DNA of 47,769 nt from Candidatus Thermoplasmatota archaeon (GTDB lineage: Archaea > Thermoplasmatota > Thermoplasmata > UBA10834), in the NCBI GenBank assembly GCA_018814355.1, contig JAHIZT010000081.1, positions 1 through 47,769 of the forward strand. The letters run 5' to 3'. Shown here one piece after another: positions 35,856-45,873 of this stretch; position 1 is the stretch's first letter; every line of letters starts with the position of its first letter. The notes under the pieces were generated by a model. It made no database searches and was not told the DNA's origin. It saw only the letters and a program-made list of their open reading frames with translations. A program made the translations under genes and the position numbers.

Positions 35856-38429
35856 ATGGAAGCTAGTAAAGAAGGCGAGATGCCTAGTGAGCCAGCTCCG
35901 GAGACACTTCCTACCGAGATCAAGGAGGAGGGGCCCAAGAAGACGAAGCTCCTCGCAGTGATCATCGTGGTGATAGTCGTTATCGCCGCAATCGCTGCAG
36001 CTTTTGGCCTTGGTCTCATCGGAGGGAAGAAGGAGGAGACAAACTTGGCTCCGACTGCCGGAGCGAGAGCCTTGACCAGCACCACGATACCAATAGGTGG
36101 TACGGTCAAGTTCGAGTCCCTAGCGACTGACCCTGACGGCACGATTGCCAAGTACTGGTGGTACTTCGGTGACGGCACGAATGTCAGCGGTGACGCCGCA
36201 GCGGCGAAGAACGTGAGCCACACATACGCTTATGGTGGACACTACTGGGTATACCACATTGCGACTGACGACAAAGGGCTCAATGGAAGCAACGAGGCAG
36301 CGATGGTCGGTGTCGACGTCCTGCTCTACATCATACCACCTGACCCCACCAACACGACTGCACCATTCGCGTTCTTGACATCTAATGTAGATGTCATCGA
36401 CCAGAACACAACGGTCAATTTCAACATGACCAGCTCGGCCGGCGTGAACTATACCGTAGCCGATGACCTGTGGGAAGAAGGCTATGACCGCCTGACGGGA
36501 ACGACCCTAGACTATGGTGTCGGAACCGCAGCCGTGTCAGTTGCTCCAGCGGAGTACATGACCGGATCGCACAAGTATACCCAGAGCGGACACTTTGCTG
36601 CGAAGTTCGTCGCAACCGCCTGGAATGAGAACTCAACGACCGTCATGAGGACGATCCACGTGCTGACCCCGAAGGCGACGTTCACCGGCGTGATCAAGAA
36701 CCCGAATGCGTTCATCATGGTCACGATTGGTGAGCCTGACTACCTCGACCCGGCAGTAGACTACGAGACGGCCGGCGGCGAGGTCCTGCAGAACTGCTAC
36801 GAGTCACTTGTGTGGTACAGCGGTACGAGCGCTTCGACTCTGGTGCCGCAACTGGCGACCAAGGTCCCGACAGTGGGTGACGGTATCACAGCTGACGGAT
36901 TGTACTACAACTTCACCCTCAGGACCGGCGTGAAGTTCCACAACAACCAGACCATGACCGCAGACGATGTCGTGTACTCCGTCCAGAGGGTAGTGAGGAT
37001 ACACGACCCCGACGGACCTGCTTGGATGGTCGAGCAAGTGCTGACGGACGGCATGTCGGCATACATCGGTGACACGCGGGTCAACTGGACAGACAGCGTG
37101 ACGACCCACACGATTCCCGCATGGTTGCTTGCGACCGTCGGAGGCACTGACCCGTACTACATCATCACGGAACTTGACAACCAGAACGCTAGCGAGGCGG
37201 CGGTCAAGGCGATCGACCCGACACACGTGAGCTTCCGCCTGACACACGCCTATCCAGCGTTCTTGTACATCTGCGCATACACTGTGATGGACGTTGTCAG
37301 TAAGGTCTTCGTTGAGGCAAACGGCGGAGTTTCCAATGGGAACCACAACGATGTGATGGATGTCAAAGTGTGTGGAACAGGCCCGTACTACATGGAGAAG
37401 TGGGAGAAGGGCGTCAAGATCCACCTGGTTAGGTGGGACAGCTGGTGGAACAGCGCTAACCAGTCAGTCAAGCTGCAGGACGTGTACATCGTCAAGGCCA
37501 ACGACCAGAACACCAGGATACTGATGCTTCAGGCCGGAGATGCGGACTGCGCAGTCATACCGATGGACTTCGAGTCGCTGTTCAGCGACACTTCGAAGTT
37601 CACGGTCAAGAAGGGGCTGCCGACGTTCGACATAACCTTCGCGGGTTTCAACATGAACATCAACACGACCGCGGCGGCATTGTACGGTAGCACCGTGCCT
37701 GCTGACTTCTTCACGGACATCCATGTAAGGAGCGCCTTCGTGCACCTGCTGAACTACACGCAGTTCATCACGAACGTCCTGAAGGGCAACGCGATCCAAC
37801 CCAACGGGCCGATCCCGAAGGGCATGTTCGGCTACGACCCCTCGGTACCGGTGTACGACTACAACCTCACGGCTGCACAAACGGAGCTGACGGCTGCCAT
37901 CAACCCGGCGACTGGACGCAGCTGGTGGATCGACGGCTTCACGATCGCCTTCATGTTCAACTCGGGCAACGCCTACAGAGAGGCGGCCTGCACGTACATG
38001 AAGTCGGCATTGGAGTCCATGGGATCGCAGTTCCACGCGACAATAAACGCGCTGGACTGGCCTACATACCTGGCGAACCTTAGGAAGGCCCCGAGCCCGT
38101 TCCCGCTGTTCTACCTCGGGTGGGCACCAGACTACGCGGACCCCGACAACTACTGCAACCCGTTCCTCCTGACCGGCGGGACGTTCGCGTACAGGACCCA
38201 ATATTCCAACGCGACGATCGATGCGCTGGTGAAGAGTGCGAGCAGCGAGCTGAACTTGACCTTGAGGGCGCAGATGTACTCCGAGATCACGTGGTTGACG
38301 CACAACGACACGCCATACATATGGCTCTACCAGTCGAACAACTTCCACGTGGAGAGATCCTGGATCAAGGGTTACTACTACAACCCGATGTATTCAGGAT
38401 TCTACTACCCGTCGTTCAGCAAGGGTTAG
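35856..38429 (+). CDS. Peptide ABC transporter substrate-binding protein with N-terminal PKD domains
   Basis: An 857-residue membrane-anchored lipoprotein-like receptor. A short cytoplasmic tail precedes a signal anchor (residues 32-56). Residues 63-155 form a PKD domain (FESLATDPDGTIAKYWWYFGDG, then YAYGGHYWVYH), and a second Ig-like unit spans about 165-275. The remainder, from about 285, is a family-5 extracellular solute-binding domain (VTIGEPDYLDPA, then LRTGVKFHNNQTMTADDVVYS), as in OppA/DppA. Numerous N-glycosylation sequons support an extracellular location. It precedes dppBCDF and would deliver peptides to that permease. Fusion of PKD domains to a solute-binding protein is uncommon. 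Confidence 0.9.
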   Translation: MEASKEGEMPSEPAPETLPTEIKEEGPKKTKLLAVIIVVIVVIAAIAAAFGLGLIGGKKEETNLAPTAGARALTSTTIPIGGTVKFESLATDPDGTIAKYWWYFGDGTNVSGDAAAAKNVSHTYAYGGHYWVYHIATDDKGLNGSNEAAMVGVDVLLYIIPPDPTNTTAPFAFLTSNVDVIDQNTTVNFNMTSSAGVNYTVADDLWEEGYDRLTGTTLDYGVGTAAVSVAPAEYMTGSHKYTQSGHFAAKFVATAWNENSTTVMRTIHVLTPKATFTGVIKNPNAFIMVTIGEPDYLDPAVDYETAGGEVLQNCYESLVWYSGTSASTLVPQLATKVPTVGDGITADGLYYNFTLRTGVKFHNNQTMTADDVVYSVQRVVRIHDPDGPAWMVEQVLTDGMSAYIGDTRVNWTDSVTTHTIPAWLLATVGGTDPYYIITELDNQNASEAAVKAIDPTHVSFRLTHAYPAFLYICAYTVMDVVSKVFVEANGGVSNGNHNDVMDVKVCGTGPYYMEKWEKGVKIHLVRWDSWWNSANQSVKLQDVYIVKANDQNTRILMLQAGDADCAVIPMDFESLFSDTSKFTVKKGLPTFDITFAGFNMNINTTAAALYGSTVPADFFTDIHVRSAFVHLLNYTQFITNVLKGNAIQPNGPIPKGMFGYDPSVPVYDYNLTAAQTELTAAINPATGRSWWIDGFTIAFMFNSGNAYREAACTYMKSALESMGSQFHATINALDWPTYLANLRKAPSPFPLFYLGWAPDYADPDNYCNPFLLTGGTFAYRTQYSNATIDALVKSASSELNLTLRAQMYSEITWLTHNDTPYIWLYQSNNFHVERSWIKGYYYNPMYSGFYYPSFSKG

Positions 38430-38623: not shown

Positions 38624-39640
38624 CTGCAACTGTGGACATACATCTTCAGGCGGCTCCTATTGCTCATACCGGTTCTCCTAGGTGTGTCCATACTCACATT
38701 CGTGATCATGCGTGCGGCGGGCGACCCGGTCACAGCCTACCTGCAGAACCCCGAAAAGGCTACCGAGGCACAGATACGTCTGATCGAACAGAAGTATCAC
38801 CTTAACGAGCCGGAGTACATACAATACTGGTATTGGTTGAATGGGGTCCTGCATGGCGACATGGGCTACAGCCGCATGGCTGGTTTACCCGTGACGCAAG
38901 CGATTGCTTTGAAGTTCCCTGCCACTTTCGAGTTAGCGCTGATCTCTGTGTTCTTCGCTGTGGTTGCGGGCATAGGGTTGGGCACGAGATCCGCGGTGAA
39001 GGCGAATTCGGCATTCGATCAAACGACCAGGGTGACTTCCCTTGTGGCCGTTTCGATCCCGGTCTTCTGGCTAGGGTTGATCCTCCTGATGATATTCTAC
39101 AGAGGATTGGGGTGGCTGCCCGGTCCTACCGGTCGCCTAGGCACGACACAGGAGCTTCACGTGGTGACAGGGTTCTTTCTAATCGATTCCATCCTCAGCG
39201 GCAAGCTTAGTCTGTTCGTCGATGTTGTCGAACACCTGGCATTGCCGTCCATCACGCTCGCCTTTGCGTCTACAGCACTCATCGTGCGCATGATGCGCTC
39301 AAGCATGCTCGAGGTGCTCGGGGCGGAGTATGTCAGGACTGCCAGGGCCAAAGGGCTACCTGAGAAAGTCGTCATCAATAGGCACGCGCGCAGGAACGCG
39401 CTCATACCGACGGTCACAGTTGTCGGCCTCAGCTTCGGTGGGCTCTTAGGCGGGGCCGTCCTCACTGAGACGGTCTTCAACTGGCCTGGACTTGGACAGT
39501 GGTCCGCTCAGGCTGCTCTGAACCTCGACACCGCAGGCATCATGGGATTCACCTTACTCACGGCGTTGATCTACGTCCTGTCGAACCTCGTAGTGGACAT
39601 CATCTACGCTTACCTCGATCCACGCGTAAGGCTTGGCTGA
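38624..39640 (+). CDS. dppB: Peptide ABC transporter permease DppB/OppB, probable CTG start
   Basis: A 338-residue permease with roughly six spans. The EAA loop that docks on the ATPase is EVLGAEYVRTARAKGLPEKVV. The family start, LWTYIFRRLLLLIPVLLGVS in form, is encoded from 38624 on, but the first ATG/GTG/TTG in frame is TTG 38660, which would remove part of the first membrane helix. CTG 38624 lies five bases after GGTGAT (38613-38618), so a CTG start is likely. A one-base indel near ATG 38617 is the alternative. The gap to oppA is 194 nt. Confidence 0.85.
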   Translation: MQLWTYIFRRLLLLIPVLLGVSILTFVIMRAAGDPVTAYLQNPEKATEAQIRLIEQKYHLNEPEYIQYWYWLNGVLHGDMGYSRMAGLPVTQAIALKFPATFELALISVFFAVVAGIGLGTRSAVKANSAFDQTTRVTSLVAVSIPVFWLGLILLMIFYRGLGWLPGPTGRLGTTQELHVVTGFFLIDSILSGKLSLFVDVVEHLALPSITLAFASTALIVRMMRSSMLEVLGAEYVRTARAKGLPEKVVINRHARRNALIPTVTVVGLSFGGLLGGAVLTETVFNWPGLGQWSAQAALNLDTAGIMGFTLLTALIYVLSNLVVDIIYAYLDPRVRLG

Positions 39641-39661: not shown

Positions 39662-40651
39662 ATGACTTCGAAACAAACGAGCGGGACCACGAAAAAAGGG
39701 GCGACAGCACCAGCCAAGGCGGCCAAAGCCAAGTCCAAGAAGGGAGGGGTCGTAGACGACCTCAAGATGGCGCTCAAGCCGCACATAAGGGAGTGGAAGT
39801 TCGACCTGCACCTGATGTCCAAGAGCCTCACCTCGATAGTTGGCATGGTGCTCCTGGTCATTCTGGTGATGCTGGCAGCTGCACCGTTCCTGTTCATGCC
39901 ACCGCAAGGACAAGGAGACCCGTTCGAGATACCAATCGACCTGACGAAGCGCGACCCGTTGCCACCAGGGACCCCAGGCTATCCACTCGGGAGCATGGTA
40001 GATGGCAGGTCGGTACTCTACGGCATTGTCTGGGGCGCGAGGACATCGATGGCCTTCGCAATACAGGTCGTCCTTGTGGGAGCCGCTATAGGATTGGTCC
40101 TGGGCCTTGTATCAGGATACAAGGGCGGTATCCTCGACGAGCTTGTCATGAGGTTCACGGACATCTTCCTCTCGATACCCGGGCTCATACTCGTGATGGC
40201 AATAGCAGCCGTCCTGGGAAGGAACCTGAACGCCACCAAGCTGGCACTGATGGCGGTCTGGTGGTCAGGGTATACTAGACTGATCAGGGGACAGGTGCTG
40301 TCCGTTAGGGAGAACACCTACATCGACGCTGCCAGGGCCTCGGGCTCGGGCGAGTTGAAAATCATGTTCAGGCACGTGTTGCCGAACTCGTGGGCCCCGA
40401 TGGTAGTTGCGGCCACGATGGACATGGGGACCGTGGTGCTGGTCATGGCTGGCCTGAGCTACCTCGGACTCGGAGCACCTCACGGATACGCCGAGTGGGG
40501 CATGATGATCAACGACGGCCAACAGAGGTTCGTTTACGGCGACTGGTGGATGATCGTGTTCCCCGGACTCGCGATACTGATGTTCGTGCTTGCGTTCAAT
40601 CTAATGGGGGACGGGCTGCGCGATGTGCTCGACCCGAAGATGAGGAGGTGA
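39662..40651 (+). CDS. dppC: Peptide ABC transporter permease DppC/OppC
   Basis: A 329-residue permease of the DppC type with about six spans. The conserved cytoplasmic loop reads SVRENTYIDAARASGSGELKIMFRHVLPN, as in the family. The N-terminus has an unusual Lys/Ala-rich stretch (KKGATAPAKAAKAKSKKGG) before the first span. It forms the translocation pore with DppB. It starts 21 bases after dppB and ends four bases before dppD, in one operon. Confidence 0.93.
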   Translation: MTSKQTSGTTKKGATAPAKAAKAKSKKGGVVDDLKMALKPHIREWKFDLHLMSKSLTSIVGMVLLVILVMLAAAPFLFMPPQGQGDPFEIPIDLTKRDPLPPGTPGYPLGSMVDGRSVLYGIVWGARTSMAFAIQVVLVGAAIGLVLGLVSGYKGGILDELVMRFTDIFLSIPGLILVMAIAAVLGRNLNATKLALMAVWWSGYTRLIRGQVLSVRENTYIDAARASGSGELKIMFRHVLPNSWAPMVVAATMDMGTVVLVMAGLSYLGLGAPHGYAEWGMMINDGQQRFVYGDWWMIVFPGLAILMFVLAFNLMGDGLRDVLDPKMRR

Positions 40652-40655
40652 TCTC

Positions 40656-42482
40656 GTGGCCGACAACGAGGACAACATTCTTGTGGAGATCAGCAACCTC
40701 GTTATCAACTTCTACACTTACCAGGGCATAGTCCGGGCAATAGAGGGAGTGGACCTGGTAATACGCAAGGGTGAAACGCTCGGGCTGGTGGGAGAGACCG
40801 GCTGCGGCAAGAGCGTCACCGCGAGCGCCATCATGAAGCTCATCCTGAGCCCACCAGGAAAGGTCGAGGGAGGACACGTCTACTTCATGGAGCCACCAGA
40901 TGTGCGCGCCCGGAGAATCCAGTTCGAAGCGGACGCGCAGCGGTGGTACGAAAGACTCCCTGAGAGCGAGAGGAAGAAGCTCGTTGCTACTTACGGGTTC
41001 AGATGGACCGGATTCGTGAAGCGTCCAAAACCGGTGACCAAGTCCGCGGTGGAGAAGACCGTCCCGCCGGAAAGGGTACCTCCACGATTGGTGGATCGAT
41101 ACCTCGCGACCAAGCTTCCTTCGATCCCCAAGGATGATAAATCGTCGCAGGACGCCGTCAAACGGAGCTACGACATGCTCACGAAGTCCATCCAGTACAT
41201 GCAGAAGATCAGGGGCAAGTTCATCTCGATGATATTCCAGGAGCCCACCAGTGCCCTTAACCCTGTGTTCACTGCTGGCGATCAGATTGCCGAGGTTATT
41301 CTGCTCCACAGAAAGGGCGATATGGCCGCGCGGGCCGCCAAGAGGATCGCGGATGAGCTGAAACCTTTCAAGAAGCCGACCAAGCAGCGCATGGATGACG
41401 CGCGCCAGTGGTACTCGGGATTGTCGGACCTGGAGCGAAAGAGAATGGTCGCTGCCTACAGATCTTGGTTCTCGCGCTTCAGGAAGAGGGGGAATCCCTT
41501 GACTCTGGCTCAGATCCGGAAGACCGTGGCTCCCGGGGAAGCCCCCGCGAGCCTCATAGCAGCGTTCATGAGGAAGAAGAGGCGGAGGCCAATGATGCTT
41601 ACCTCGCGAATCCAAGTGAGAGTAGAGCCCTCGAAATCCTCATACAAGACGATTAGCAGATGCTCTATGTGCAACGCCAAAGTGGAAGAATCGGACGAGT
41701 GGTGCGACAGCTGTGGCAGCAGATTCTACGGACCGATATCCTGGTTCTTGAGACTTACCGCATTGAAGACGAACCAGAAGATGCTTCAGTTCATCGTCAA
41801 GAAGCCGGAGTCTAAGGAATTCTTCTCAGCGAAAATCCCATTACTGAATCGATATCGCAAGGACCTCTACGAGGAAGCTCTCAAGGAAGCCGTCAGGATG
41901 CTTGAGGTAGTGAGAATCCCGGACCCAAAAGGTATCGCTCGCAGGTATCCCTTCGAGCTCAGCGGGGGGATGCAGCAGAGGGTCATGATAGCCATCGCCC
42001 TTGCGTGCAACCCGAAGCTGCTCATAGCCGATGAGCCCACGACCGCACTCGATGTCACGATCCAGGGGCAGATTCTCAAACTGATGAGAGACCTCAAGCA
42101 AGCCTACGGCGGCTCGATCCTGCTGATAACGCACAACCTAGGCGTGGTTGCGGAGATGTGCGACCGCGTTGGGGTGATGTATGCCGGGTCGATGGCCGAG
42201 ATCGGAGTGTCCAGGGACATATTCAAGAAGCCCCTCCACCCGTACACGCAGGGACTGATGAAGGCCGTCCCCTCGATCCAGATGGAATCGGAGAGGCTGT
42301 ACACCATCAGAGGTTCGGTCCCCAACCTAATCTACCCGCCAAGCGGGTGCAGGTTCCACCCGAGATGCGACTACGCCAGGAAGTACTGCGAAAAGGTTAA
42401 GCCCGATCTGATCGAGATAGAACCGGGACACAAGGTTTCATGTCACATGGTGGCGAAGGCGGAGGGGTATGTTCGAGAATAA
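40656..42482 (+). CDS. dppD: Peptide ABC transporter ATPase DppD with two inserted repeat modules and a zinc ribbon
   Basis: A 608-residue ABC ATPase, against about 330 for normal DppD. Core motifs are Walker A GETGCGKS (46-53), Q-loop IFQEPTSALNPVF (193-205), signature LSGGMQQRV and Walker B LLIADEPTTALD. Residues 93-153 and 248-308 are two ungapped related modules (23 of 61 identical), inserted on either side of the Q-loop. A zinc ribbon (CSMC at 336-339, CDSC at 350-353) follows. The C-terminal oligo-HPY region (GCRFHPRC) is normal. GTG 40656 follows GGTGATCTC. The stop lies within the start of dppF (14-base overlap). Confidence 0.92.
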   Translation: MADNEDNILVEISNLVINFYTYQGIVRAIEGVDLVIRKGETLGLVGETGCGKSVTASAIMKLILSPPGKVEGGHVYFMEPPDVRARRIQFEADAQRWYERLPESERKKLVATYGFRWTGFVKRPKPVTKSAVEKTVPPERVPPRLVDRYLATKLPSIPKDDKSSQDAVKRSYDMLTKSIQYMQKIRGKFISMIFQEPTSALNPVFTAGDQIAEVILLHRKGDMAARAAKRIADELKPFKKPTKQRMDDARQWYSGLSDLERKRMVAAYRSWFSRFRKRGNPLTLAQIRKTVAPGEAPASLIAAFMRKKRRRPMMLTSRIQVRVEPSKSSYKTISRCSMCNAKVEESDEWCDSCGSRFYGPISWFLRLTALKTNQKMLQFIVKKPESKEFFSAKIPLLNRYRKDLYEEALKEAVRMLEVVRIPDPKGIARRYPFELSGGMQQRVMIAIALACNPKLLIADEPTTALDVTIQGQILKLMRDLKQAYGGSILLITHNLGVVAEMCDRVGVMYAGSMAEIGVSRDIFKKPLHPYTQGLMKAVPSIQMESERLYTIRGSVPNLIYPPSGCRFHPRCDYARKYCEKVKPDLIEIEPGHKVSCHMVAKAEGYVRE

Positions 42483-43773
42483 GGTCGAATTCGACAGAAA
42501 CCTCATCGATGTCGTCAACCTGAAGAAGTACTTCCCAATCCGGGGAGGCCTTCTCAAGCGGTCAGTGGGAGTGGTGAAGGCCGTCGACGACGTCACCTTC
42601 TTCATCAAGAGGGGTGAGACCCTCGGCCTAGTTGGAGAGTCCGGCTGCGGCAAGACCACTGTCGGAAGGTCCATCATGATGCTAACGCCGCCCTCGTCTG
42701 GCTATGTGTTCCTCGAGACCCCGAAGGACATCGTCAGGACCTTCACTGAGCTCGTGAATCTCGTGAACGGCACCAACGTCGGCAAGATGACGCCCGAGGT
42801 GGCACTGGCAATCGCGGACAAGATCAACAAGATGTTCGGGTCCCACAACTGTGAGATAACCGAGGGCAAGAAGAAGCACTTCTGCATCGACGCCGGGAAG
42901 ATCACAAAGGCGGTCCAGCCCATCCGGTCCGGGACAAGGTTGGGAAGCGAGGAAAAAACAGTCAGGGACCTCGCGGAGGACGCGATCGAGGAGCTCACCC
43001 GGAGGTATTGCATCAACTTCAAGATCAAGAGCCAGGTCCGGAAACTGAGGGGAAGGATCCAGTTCGTGTTCCAAGATCCGTTCTCATCATTGGATCCGAA
43101 GATGCTGATCAAGAACATCGTTTTGGAACCGATGGTCGCTCAGAACAGGTATCGGGGAAGAGGGGGCGCGAGCGGCAAGAAGCTCTCGAAGGAGGAACTT
43201 AGGATGCGAACGATACAGCTGCTCGAGAGGGTGGGTCTGAACGTCGAGCACATGTACAGGTTCCCGCACGAGTTCAGCGGGGGGCAGAGGCAGAGGATAG
43301 GCATTGCCCGGGCACTCTCCGTCAATCCGGACTTCGTCGTCCTCGACGAGCCCACTTCCGCACTGGATGTGTCAGTCCAGGCGCAGATCCTCAACATGCT
43401 GAACCATCTCCAGAAGGACTTCGGCCTCACCTTCCTCTTCATATCCCACGACCTGAGCACGATCAGGTACATGTGCGACCGGGTCGCGGTGATGTACCTG
43501 GGCAAGATCGTTGAATACTCCGAGAAGCACGAGCTTTTCAACAAGCCGACGCACCCGTACACCGAGGCGCTCTTGTCGGTCATACCTGTCCCAGACCCCG
43601 ACCTGAAGAGGGACAGGATCATCCTCCCAGGAGATGTGCCGAGCCCGGCGAACCCGCCCTCCGGCTGCAGGTTCCACACAAGATGCCCCCTGGTCATAGA
43701 TGTATGCCACACGATCGACCCGCCCCTGACGGACAGGGGGAACGAGCACTTTGTCGCGTGCCATGTCCGCTGA
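42469..43773 (+). CDS. dppF: Peptide ABC transporter ATPase DppF with an insertion before the Q-loop
   Basis: A 434-residue ABC ATPase (about 320 is usual). Walker A GESGCGKTT lies at residues 56-64, Q-loop VFQDPFSSLDPKM at about 200, signature FSGGQRQRIGIA and Walker B FVVLDEPTSALD. Between them, about residues 84-188 form an insertion with HNC, HFC and RRYC cysteine motifs and no similarity I can see to the DppD repeats. The C-terminus has the usual oligo-HPY cysteine region (GCRFHTRCP). It completes the DppD/DppF pair. Its end overlaps the next gene. Confidence 0.92.
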   Translation: MFENKVEFDRNLIDVVNLKKYFPIRGGLLKRSVGVVKAVDDVTFFIKRGETLGLVGESGCGKTTVGRSIMMLTPPSSGYVFLETPKDIVRTFTELVNLVNGTNVGKMTPEVALAIADKINKMFGSHNCEITEGKKKHFCIDAGKITKAVQPIRSGTRLGSEEKTVRDLAEDAIEELTRRYCINFKIKSQVRKLRGRIQFVFQDPFSSLDPKMLIKNIVLEPMVAQNRYRGRGGASGKKLSKEELRMRTIQLLERVGLNVEHMYRFPHEFSGGQRQRIGIARALSVNPDFVVLDEPTSALDVSVQAQILNMLNHLQKDFGLTFLFISHDLSTIRYMCDRVAVMYLGKIVEYSEKHELFNKPTHPYTEALLSVIPVPDPDLKRDRIILPGDVPSPANPPSGCRFHTRCPLVIDVCHTIDPPLTDRGNEHFVACHVR

Positions 43774-44176
43774 CGGCAGTTCGGAAGGCCCAATCGATTC
43801 GGCCTCCAAGAAGCGCGAGGCGGCTTACCGAGCCCTCGAAGAGGACTCCGACCTCCCGGAGGAGCAGGCGGTCAAGCTGGTCCGCAAGCATCTGCCATGG
43901 AAGGACTGGCTGCTCGCTGATTTCCTGAGATACTGGTATGTCCTCGGCTGCCTCGCATTGGACGTCTTTTTACCACTCCGAATCGCCCGTTGGCTCCACG
44001 CGGACTCGGCCTATAGCATCCTAGGACTCGTCGTTCTTCTGTTGGTGCTAGTCTACCTTGAGACGAGGACATACATATGGATCTGGCCCAGTGGCGTCAA
44101 GACTAGAATCGAGACGCAGCGAAGGGCGTTCCGCAGGGCGTTTCGCAAGCTGACAGCAGCGTTCCGCAGGGACTAG
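43763..44176 (+). CDS. Hypothetical protein with two membrane spans
   Basis: A 137-residue protein with a charged N-terminal half (AYRALEEDSDLPEEQAVKLVRKHLP), two hydrophobic spans (near residues 57-75 and 84-101) and a basic C-terminus (RRAFRRAFRKLTAAFRRD). ATG 43763 overlaps the dppF stop by 11 bases, so it is translationally coupled to the peptide operon. No family is recognised. The basic tail probably lies in the cytoplasm. Confidence 0.6.
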   Translation: MSADGSSEGPIDSASKKREAAYRALEEDSDLPEEQAVKLVRKHLPWKDWLLADFLRYWYVLGCLALDVFLPLRIARWLHADSAYSILGLVVLLLVLVYLETRTYIWIWPSGVKTRIETQRRAFRRAFRKLTAAFRRD

Positions 44177-44235: not shown

Positions 44236-45873
44236 CTGAACGGCTACCTCATTGCCATTCTGGCATCGGCCGCGTACGCGGTGATACTCCTCGTCGGCTG
44301 GCGAGTGAAGCTATGGAATCGGCACGGCATCAAGCTCTATGGTCCGATCATGATGCTCAGGACAAGCAGAGGCCGGGCATTCATCGAGAGGCTCGGATCG
44401 CACGCGCGCGGATGGAGCCACTATGGCCTTGCCTCGGTGGTCATATGCGCACTCACGACCACAGTCGTTGCCGCCTTTCTGATATGGGAGGTCTTCACGA
44501 CCTTCAGCGCGCCGTCCCAGATGGACCTGTCGAACGACCTCCCCTTCGGCCAGACCGGCATCAATCCAGCAGTGACCGTGACATATGCCGTCATAGGAAT
44601 AGGGGTCGCAGTCGTCGCCCATGAACTATGCCACGGGGTTCTCTCAAGCGTCGGCAATATCAAGTTGAGGTCCATCGGACTCATGCTTCTGGTGATCCCG
44701 ATAGGCGCGTTCGTCGAGCCAGACGAGGATGCCCTCAAGGCCACGAAGCGGACGAACAGGCTGAAGGTCTACGCCGCAGGGCCTGCCACCAACGTCATTC
44801 TGGCAATCGTCTTCCTGGCAATCCTACTGGGGTTACTGATGCCTTCGGTCAGACCAATCGCAGATGGGGCGGTCGTCACGAGCGTCGCGCCCGACTCCCC
44901 TGCAGAGACCTCCGGCATAAGGGTTTGGAGCGACATCACCGAATTGAATGGGGAAAAGGTGAACACCACCTCGTTCAGGTCAACCTGGTTCAGCAATCCC
45001 GGGGAGCTTGTCAGCATCAACCTGACCTACAAGCAGCAAACGCAGATCATCGCGCTCCCGGGAGGCGTCGTGATTAGTTCGGTGACGGACGGACCCGCGC
45101 TCAATGCTGGCATACGGCCAGGGATGATGGTGACGAGCCTGAACGACACCGTGATCCACAGCGTTGAGCAGTTCGAGTCAGTGGTAGAGGCTTCAACGCA
45201 CGACGCACCGGTGAACATAACCGTGCTGAAGCTGGGACATGATACCACCGGAGGCGTCAGCTGGTTCGTCCAGGATCCGTCAATAAGGAGCGTGAACCTG
45301 ACAACCAAATGGCTGTACTACCGCCTGCATTTCCCCAACCAGAACAAGGAGGAGTACAGGAACATCAGCTTCATGGGTGTTTCGAGCTCTCCCCTAGGCA
45401 TCAGCGTCGAAGACCCCGACACGATCCTGAAGCCGGTGGCGCATCCGTTCAGCGCAACCGGGGATATTGACGCCGCCATGAGGGACTCCCTTAGGTACCT
45501 AGGACTTCCGTTCTTCGGTTACGCCCCGATCATGTCGCCCGAGGCTGACCTCTTCGAACCATCAGGAGTCCTATCACCCCTGCCAACCAACGTGTTCTGG
45601 ACGGTCTCGAACCTATGCTACTGGATCTTCTGGATGAACCTCATGTTCGCCCTGACGAACGCAATACCGGCCGTGCCCATGGACGGCGGGATGGTGATGA
45701 GCGACCTCATCAAGGGGCTGACCAGACGCCTGGGCGAGAGGCTGAGCGGGTTCGACCTCCTGGTCGGGAAGAAGCCCATATCGGACGTGCAGGTTGACCG
45801 TTTCATGATAGCGCTCACTGCGGTGTTCGGAGTATTGGTCGCCTACCTCGTGCTATGGCAACTGCTCTTGTGA
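44236..45873 (+). CDS. M50/site-2-protease-like membrane metallopeptidase with PDZ domains, probable CTG start
   Basis: A 545-residue intramembrane protease-like protein. The zinc motif HELCH is at residues 129-133 in a membrane span, and the third ligand is in the C-terminal AIPAVPMDGGMV. Between them lie two PDZ-like units (AVVTSVAPDSPAETSGI and VVISSVTDGPALNAGIRPGMMV). Relatives start with a membrane helix, here NGYLIAILASAAYAVILLV, preceded by CTG 44236. GAGGGGGG at 44222-44229 is a ribosome-binding site, and the first ATG/GTG/TTG in frame is GTG 44281, which would cut the first helix. It may cleave a membrane-bound regulator or signal peptide remnant. Confidence 0.85.
   Translation: MNGYLIAILASAAYAVILLVGWRVKLWNRHGIKLYGPIMMLRTSRGRAFIERLGSHARGWSHYGLASVVICALTTTVVAAFLIWEVFTTFSAPSQMDLSNDLPFGQTGINPAVTVTYAVIGIGVAVVAHELCHGVLSSVGNIKLRSIGLMLLVIPIGAFVEPDEDALKATKRTNRLKVYAAGPATNVILAIVFLAILLGLLMPSVRPIADGAVVTSVAPDSPAETSGIRVWSDITELNGEKVNTTSFRSTWFSNPGELVSINLTYKQQTQIIALPGGVVISSVTDGPALNAGIRPGMMVTSLNDTVIHSVEQFESVVEASTHDAPVNITVLKLGHDTTGGVSWFVQDPSIRSVNLTTKWLYYRLHFPNQNKEEYRNISFMGVSSSPLGISVEDPDTILKPVAHPFSATGDIDAAMRDSLRYLGLPFFGYAPIMSPEADLFEPSGVLSPLPTNVFWTVSNLCYWIFWMNLMFALTNAIPAVPMDGGMVMSDLIKGLTRRLGERLSGFDLLVGKKPISDVQVDRFMIALTAVFGVLVAYLVLWQLLL

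Follow-up and report, generated by a model that had tools for sequence, protein, structure and literature searches.

The importer operon and its DppD ATPase

The window analyzed here is the whole of a 47,769-nucleotide stretch of DNA from a Candidatus Thermoplasmatota archaeon (contig JAHIZT010000081.1 of assembly GCA_018814355.1). It carries the operon setting of a peptide importer, with genes for a substrate-binding protein, two permeases and DppF around the gene for a DppD ATPase, and with a gene for a small membrane protein that starts just within the 3' end of dppF (Table 1). An M50 family membrane protease with PDZ domains is encoded on the same strand after the operon (44281-45873).

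Table 1. Genes of the importer operon and features of DppD, in window positions
Feature	Position	Strand	Evidence or remark
DppA-like substrate-binding protein with PKD domain	35856..38429	+	SBP_bac_5 214 bits, PKD_4 45 bits
DppB-like permease	38660..39640	+	BPD_transp_1 141 bits
DppC-like permease	39662..40651	+	BPD_transp_1 117.5 bits
DppD/OppD-type ATPase, 608 aa, two large internal inserts	40656..42482	+	Pfam ABC_tran, oligo_HPY
DppD insert 1, residues ~77-176, Walker A to Q-loop	40884..41183	+	net charge +8
Module copy 1, residues 93-153	40932..41114	+	23/61 identical to copy 2
Q-loop glutamine Q195	41238..41240	+	invariant in alignment A4
E213, equivalent of E. coli DppD E114	41292..41294	+	phmmer alignment numbering
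DppD insert 2, residues ~220-404, post-Q-loop helix to signature motif	41313..41867	+	net charge ~+25 (counted over residues 221-404)
Module copy 2, residues 248-308	41397..41579	+	23/61 identical to copy 1
Zinc-ribbon pattern CxxC-x10-CxxC (CSMC/CDSC), residues 336-353	41661..41714	+	weak Pfam matches
Four-Cys C-terminal site (C565, C571, C578, C596), expected [4Fe-4S]	42348..42443	+	Cys invariant in A4
DppF, 434 aa, own first-loop insert	42469..43773	+	Walker A to Q-loop 140
DppF first-loop insert	roughly 42712-43008	+	Walker A to Q-loop 140
Small membrane protein, probably two-helix, candidate sixth subunit	43763..44176	+	no family above cutoff

By the sequence and fold features tested, DppD is an ATPase of the Dpp/Opp peptide-importer type; transport itself is predicted. 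The protein exceeds the cutoffs of Pfam ABC_tran (78.9 bits, cutoff 25), Pfam oligo_HPY (76.2 bits, cutoff 27.1) and TIGR01727 (101.9, cutoff 37.6), and matches full-length OppD/DppD models below their cutoffs (e.g., NF007010, 328 against 575), as it does the Mycoplasma OppD equivalog NF043079 (299.5 bits against 740). The Walker A, Q-loop, LSGGM signature, Walker B and H-loop motifs are all present and occupy invariant columns of alignment A4 (7 sequences). The four C-terminal cysteines form a candidate [4Fe-4S] site, as expected from E. coli DppD, whose cluster is bound via four C-terminal cysteines according to PMC12136057. E. coli OppD and DppD (8z21_C and 8z1v_C; 46% and 42% identity) share with the window DppD the ATPase fold over nearly the whole chain, the four-Cys site and the operon type, whereas they have only 336 and 327 residues and carry neither insert.

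An AlphaFold model of DppD (mean pLDDT 84) was built from a 16-sequence alignment in which 3 sequences carry either insert and 2 carry copy 2 of the module. It superimposes on OppD 8z21_C over 325 of 327 residues (Z score 34.5, 1.8 Å, 46% identity). The ATPase fold in the model is complete, and therefore about 283 of the 608 residues are extra and the modules lie outside the normal fold. The preliminary description had noted that DppD is nearly twice the normal length, and none of the outcomes that it named as counting against the module reading was observed. The chain consists of one complete ATPase unit plus inserts, in contrast to the two units per chain of UvrA and ABC-F proteins. It also differs from Rad50/SMC proteins with their long coiled coil and zinc hook, in that insert 2 comprises about 185 residues and the helices of the model extend to at most about 25 residues.

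Two basic inserts that share a duplicated module

Walker A and the Q-loop are separated by 143 residues in the window DppD, and the Q-loop and the signature motif by 240 residues; the corresponding distances in most ordinary relatives are 45-51 and 55-63. The Q-loop relays ATP hydrolysis to the movement of the permease in ABC transporters. Both inserts are basic, whereas the net charges of the core segments are -3, +3 and +4. Insert 2 begins about 7 residues past E213, the counterpart of E114 in E. coli DppD, which forms a salt bridge with K243 of DppB (PMC12136057).

The module constitutes the core of each insert and not the whole of it. The coordinates, the gapless alignment and the 23 of 61 identical residues given in the preliminary description were reproduced exactly when the alignment was recomputed (BLOSUM62 score 118). 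None of 5000 shuffled insert pairs reached this score (best shuffle, 66); in an ungapped self-comparison of the whole protein the module pair is the best off-diagonal match, and the highest score in self-comparisons of 60 shuffled DppD proteins was 53. The proposed internal repeat is thus significant against shuffled sequence, and with the core motifs located and the inserts placed outside the standard fold, its copies indeed lie on both sides of Q195, inside the ATPase. An assembly artefact is unlikely, because the homologous DppD of a related genome (G004) has the same repeat (score 122) at the same offset of 155 residues. The two copies agree at 31, 41 and 22 of 61 first, second and third codon positions, respectively, which is the pattern of a protein-coding duplicate. 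Among 61 DppD proteins chosen for their long spacing, a cross-site repeat clearly above shuffles (highest, 48) was found in only two, those of the window and of G004. The DppD of locus L259 has a weaker first-loop repeat (score 56).

The modules are predicted to be helical, mostly with pLDDT of at least 80 and with weaker stretches. The helices of the first module (residues 81-100, 103-115, 129-134 and 143-156) and of the second (242-255, 258-268, 271-275, 284-289 and 298-310) form nearly equal patterns shifted by 155 residues. Insert 2 folded alone gave helices much as in the full model, with a mean pLDDT of 57 that is too low for a fold search. Foldseek and VIA searches with the full model returned ABC ATPases only among the matches listed and are uninformative on the fold of the inserts.

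Insert 1 matches no Pfam family (E up to 10) and no NCBIfam family (E up to 1), in searches whose HMMER filters drop most weak matches; this is the outcome of looking for the module outside transporters, as had been proposed. Within the DppD inserts, family models matched insert 2 alone and only weakly, led by zinc-ribbon models (Zn_ribbon_15, Zn_ribbon_3 and DZR; best 17.3 bits against a cutoff of 28.9, E 0.0085). Two CxxC pairs with conserved spacing occur in 14 of 50 long-insert DppDs (Q-loop to signature distance above 100), the window's among them, and these 14 proteins belong to families f1, f2, f20 and f31. The zinc ribbon noted earlier behind module 2 is therefore in its place as a cysteine pattern, but ribbon and module are not one unit, because the zinc pattern is more widespread and because another genome of the genus (G007) combines it with a single module copy.

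Comparison of the window's genome (G000) with G004 gave w values of about 0.10 for module 1, 0.33 for module 2, 0.44 for insert 2 overall and 0.03-0.08 for the core, all of them rough, as synonymous differences between the two genomes are near saturation. The zinc region is likewise weakly constrained (w 0.44 against G004). Against G007, module 1 has a w of 0.34 and the core segments 0.08-0.25. Both modules therefore seem to encode protein and to be constrained to some degree, copy 1 more strongly than copy 2 and both less than the core.

Distribution and origin of the inserts

A profile of the module searched in 100 relatives found four genomes at E≤0.001: G000 and G004 with two copies each, G007 with one, and G002 with two fragments at contig ends. 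The next match, a partial DppD in G019, has an E of 0.002, and other matches up to E 1 were taken as chance. DppDs that carry the module, which the preliminary description had asked for, thus exist in 4 of the 8 genomes of the window's genus searched, the window's own among them, and clear copies are confined to this genus among the genomes searched. Among the matches listed from a search of 389 phylum genomes, those at E≤1e-4 were in G000 and G007 only; G002 and G004 did not appear in that listing. A scan of genome contigs for relatives found two only, L081 and L082.

The DppD of G007 retains copy 1 and the zinc pattern and has no recognizable copy 2. For this reason copy 2 is read as a later gain, which apparently joined an older insert that had the zinc-ribbon pattern; loss of copy 2 in G007 instead is possible. 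The module-type insert of G002 belongs to a paralogue other than the window's DppD. The core of its C204 copy falls within a clade of nine (support 100/99), the eight other members of which have ordinary spacing, and its insert is 39% identical to the window insert over 97 residues (E 1.9e-19). The other fragment, C54, matches the profile of the window-type insert with E 1.9e-27, and the two fragments are 86% identical over 86 residues. Transfer or differential loss may explain this placement. Window-like inserts were observed at L126 (DppF of G004) and at L090/L034 (DppD of G002), in paralogues whose close orthologues are without them, where exchange between paralogues or repeated loss is possible.

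Inserts at both loops are common in related DppDs, as are inserts at the first loop in DppFs, and their lengths vary widely. The insert of the window DppF, searched as positions 42724-43040, matches no Pfam or NCBIfam family. No homology between it and the module was found: a DppF-insert profile scored at most 1.1 bits on a DppD insert (best non-members listed), against 8.6 for the best shuffle. A profile of the window-type DppD insert scored 11.1 bits on other DppD insert groups, against 11.5 for the best shuffle, and reverse insert profiles scored 17.0 and 18.8 bits on the insert of G007, against 11.2 and 12.2 for shuffles; a distant link between the window-type insert and other groups is possible on this sequence comparison. 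A single origin of all insert-2 types was rejected, the three modelled groups (zinc, f10-like and f18-like) having no mutual match above shuffles. The zinc-type insert 2 links to three relatives without CxxC pairs (L241, L242 and L251), which suggests that these have a zinc-type-like insert that has lost the metal site. The DppDs of L274 and L279 contain a tandem repeat of about 70 residues within insert 2, with a spacing unlike that of the window repeat. The DppD of L158 (genome G016) is without the first-loop insert of about 90 residues of its closest relatives L148 and L154, and the flanks are similar.

Large insertions at these sites have precedents. In the Mycoplasma models, a long first-loop insert is seen as a jump in profile positions from 66 to 296 in OppD (NF043079) and from 68 to 394 in OppF (NF043078), whereas ordinary models jump by about 10-16; subtraction of the NCBIfam alignment positions gives about 220 and 320 extra positions, respectively. 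Mycoplasma OppD has no second-loop gap (337 to 342), unlike the window DppD, and the likeness is one of insert site. Among other ABC proteins, the inserted domain of UvrA/Ecm16 and the zinc-binding insert of Rad50, the zinc hook, lie between the Q-loop and the signature. Rad50 differs from the window DppD in its very long coiled coil and single CxxC per chain, and ABC-F proteins carry one arm only and are not known to have a permease or a zinc ribbon. Published accounts describe zinc-binding Cys pairs that flank the domain inserted in the first ATPase unit of UvrA/Ecm16, as well as a small domain (residues 94-136), the arm, inserted in an ATPase unit of the ABC-F protein EttA. UvrA and Ecm16 serve DNA repair or resistance and are not transporters, and both they and EttA differ from DppD in having two ATPase units per chain.

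The duplicated-module arrangement is real and appears to be undescribed: among the genomes searched, the same module at both loops was found only in G000 and G004, the libraries searched contain no match to it, and no open-licence paper listed dealt with such inserts in its title or the start of its abstract. The earlier claim of novelty holds to this extent; the insert sites themselves are not new, given the inserts of related DppDs and DppFs and of Mycoplasma OppD and OppF.

The small membrane protein and the possible role of the inserts

The small membrane protein has no family above cutoff in Pfam or NCBIfam. Hydrophobic stretches above threshold number one in 5 of 12 family members (the window's included), two or more in 6 and none in 1; the protein is probably two-helix, the alignment of the family being the source for the second helix. 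Three Trp, one Arg and one Tyr do not vary among 7 aligned members, and in most members the hydrophobic stretches include an acidic residue. The family occurs in 60 of 389 genomes of the phylum (E≤0.001), and was observed directly downstream of dppF throughout the window's class, as well as in some genomes beyond this class (loci L220-L279).

At the best 20 loci of the family, a dppF-type gene is directly upstream in 19, and the remaining one starts near a contig start. Forty of the 61 listed matches were fetched, 14 of them being genes already in the best 20. At 35 of these 40 loci the 200 bases upstream lead to an ABC gene (frames taken stop to stop), with a DppF-type signature in 33 cases and untyped in two; of the other five loci, L271 is at a contig end, dppF was not placed by the script at L259, L260 and L266, and L272 is unclear. 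The spacing between Q-loop and signature in the accompanying DppD was not measurable at 4 of the 40 loci; it is at least 115 in all 29 measured in the window's class and 58-89 in all 7 measured outside it.

Among loci found with DppD, the membrane gene is present in 10 of 17 with a spacing above 150, against 0 of 52 others. Under a stricter rule (dppF seen, 400 bases available) the counts are 5 of 8 against 0 of 39; the loci counted had themselves supplied hits for the search profile, and the Fisher value of 3.7e-5 for membrane gene against DppD spacing overstates independence, the loci being related by descent. Five long-spacing loci have no membrane gene in the fetched stretch (L088, with only a match of E 0.028, L116, L119, L120 and L172), and two more, L086 and L122, end at a contig edge. 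Genome G019, outside the 69 DppD loci, has the membrane gene together with a DppD spacing of 100. The membrane protein cannot exist only to hold the inserts, because it also occurs beside DppDs of near-normal spacing, and it seems to predate the large inserts. It is a candidate importer subunit; in open-licence papers (titles and starts of abstracts) no mention was found of archaeal peptide importers with a small membrane subunit.

Our tentative reading, with a probability of about 0.36, is that the duplicated module and the basic inserts act as a peripheral cap, which steadies the coupling of ATPase and permease or tunes it, with the zinc ribbon as a brace. The module would have arisen in the window's genus within insert 1, and a copy would then have been added to the older zinc-ribbon insert 2. 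The strongly basic inserts would form the cap where the ATPase faces the membrane, close to the Q-loop and the permease joint, and may there make contact with the small membrane protein, the permease or the acidic head groups of lipids; such contacts would steady the complex or tune its coupling, and the zinc ribbon would be a structural brace separate from the catalytic and Fe-S sites. The membrane-facing placement is predicted from the equivalence of E213 with E114 and from what is generally known about ABC importers. The cap reading draws support from the start of insert 2 next to E213, the charge contrast between inserts and core, the complete predicted ATPase fold with nearly equal helices in the two modules, the constraint on both modules against G004, the single module copy of G007, the position of the membrane gene directly behind an ABC gene, and its association with long DppD spacing. 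Against it stand the membrane protein's occurrence beside DppDs of near-normal spacing, where inserts are not needed for it, and the five long-spacing loci without the gene. The weak constraint on copy 2 and the zinc region also counts against a cap, as does the looser constraint on copy 1 than on the core in comparison with G007, and the several insert-2 types without detectable shared sequence are as expected of a tolerant loop.

Tolerated loop growth, in which inserts accumulate, duplicate and get lost in permissive surface loops with little function, is nearly as probable as the cap reading, though short of even odds. It agrees with the widely varying insert lengths, with the tandem repeats of L274 and L279, with the DppD of G016 that is without an insert carried by its close relatives in G013 and G017, and with the weak constraint on copy 2 against G004 and on copy 1 against G007. 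However, copy 1 is near core constraint in the comparison with G004, the zinc cysteine pattern occurs in 14 DppDs of four families, and the modules are predicted as helical units.

The roles suggested in the preliminary description, namely regulation, binding of a partner or sensing, are speculative. A regulatory role in which the ATPase would be switched by a soluble partner, by nucleic acid or by metal bound to the inserts is unlikely. Inserted domains have such a role in other ABC proteins: published accounts report that the inserted domain of Ecm16, a UvrA relative, is required for DNA binding and that the arm of EttA contacts the ribosomal stalk. The basic charge and the zinc-ribbon pattern would suit such a role, but none of the genes seen was a partner linked to the module, a membrane protein being the neighbour that is conserved, and the inserts' family matches are weak and confined to insert 2. 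Removal or non-translation of the inserts (an intron, an intein or a frameshift artefact) is very improbable: it would fit an in-frame interruption of a conserved gene at sites where paralogues may be without inserts, but the reading frame through the inserts is open, their base composition resembles that of the core and their w is below 1, and homologous inserts occupy the same places in other genomes.

A bolder version of the cap reading, which we consider rather doubtful, is a six-subunit importer, DppABCDF with the small membrane protein as a dedicated subunit, in which the lineage-specific cytoplasmic inserts of the ATPases (zinc ribbon and duplicated basic helical module) cradle the joint of ATPase and permease and gate coupling. 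Because one insert occurs in paralogues that are not sisters, those of G002 and of the window's group, paralogous importers may also exchange inserts as portable parts for control. The ATPase motor of ABC importers is usually regarded as invariant, whereas the lineage of the window has grafted large and partly conserved domains on the loops that flank the Q-loop, once with the same module at both. Together with the unrecognized membrane protein behind dppF, the inserts offer a testable natural case of a motor gaining accessory parts for control or assembly.

A separate observation concerns the DppF of G020 (L146, 2607-4026, plus strand), the first-loop insert of which has two hydrophobic stretches of helix length, like a membrane hairpin. 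Such stretches are expected if the first loop can reach the membrane, and in this they favour the cap reading.
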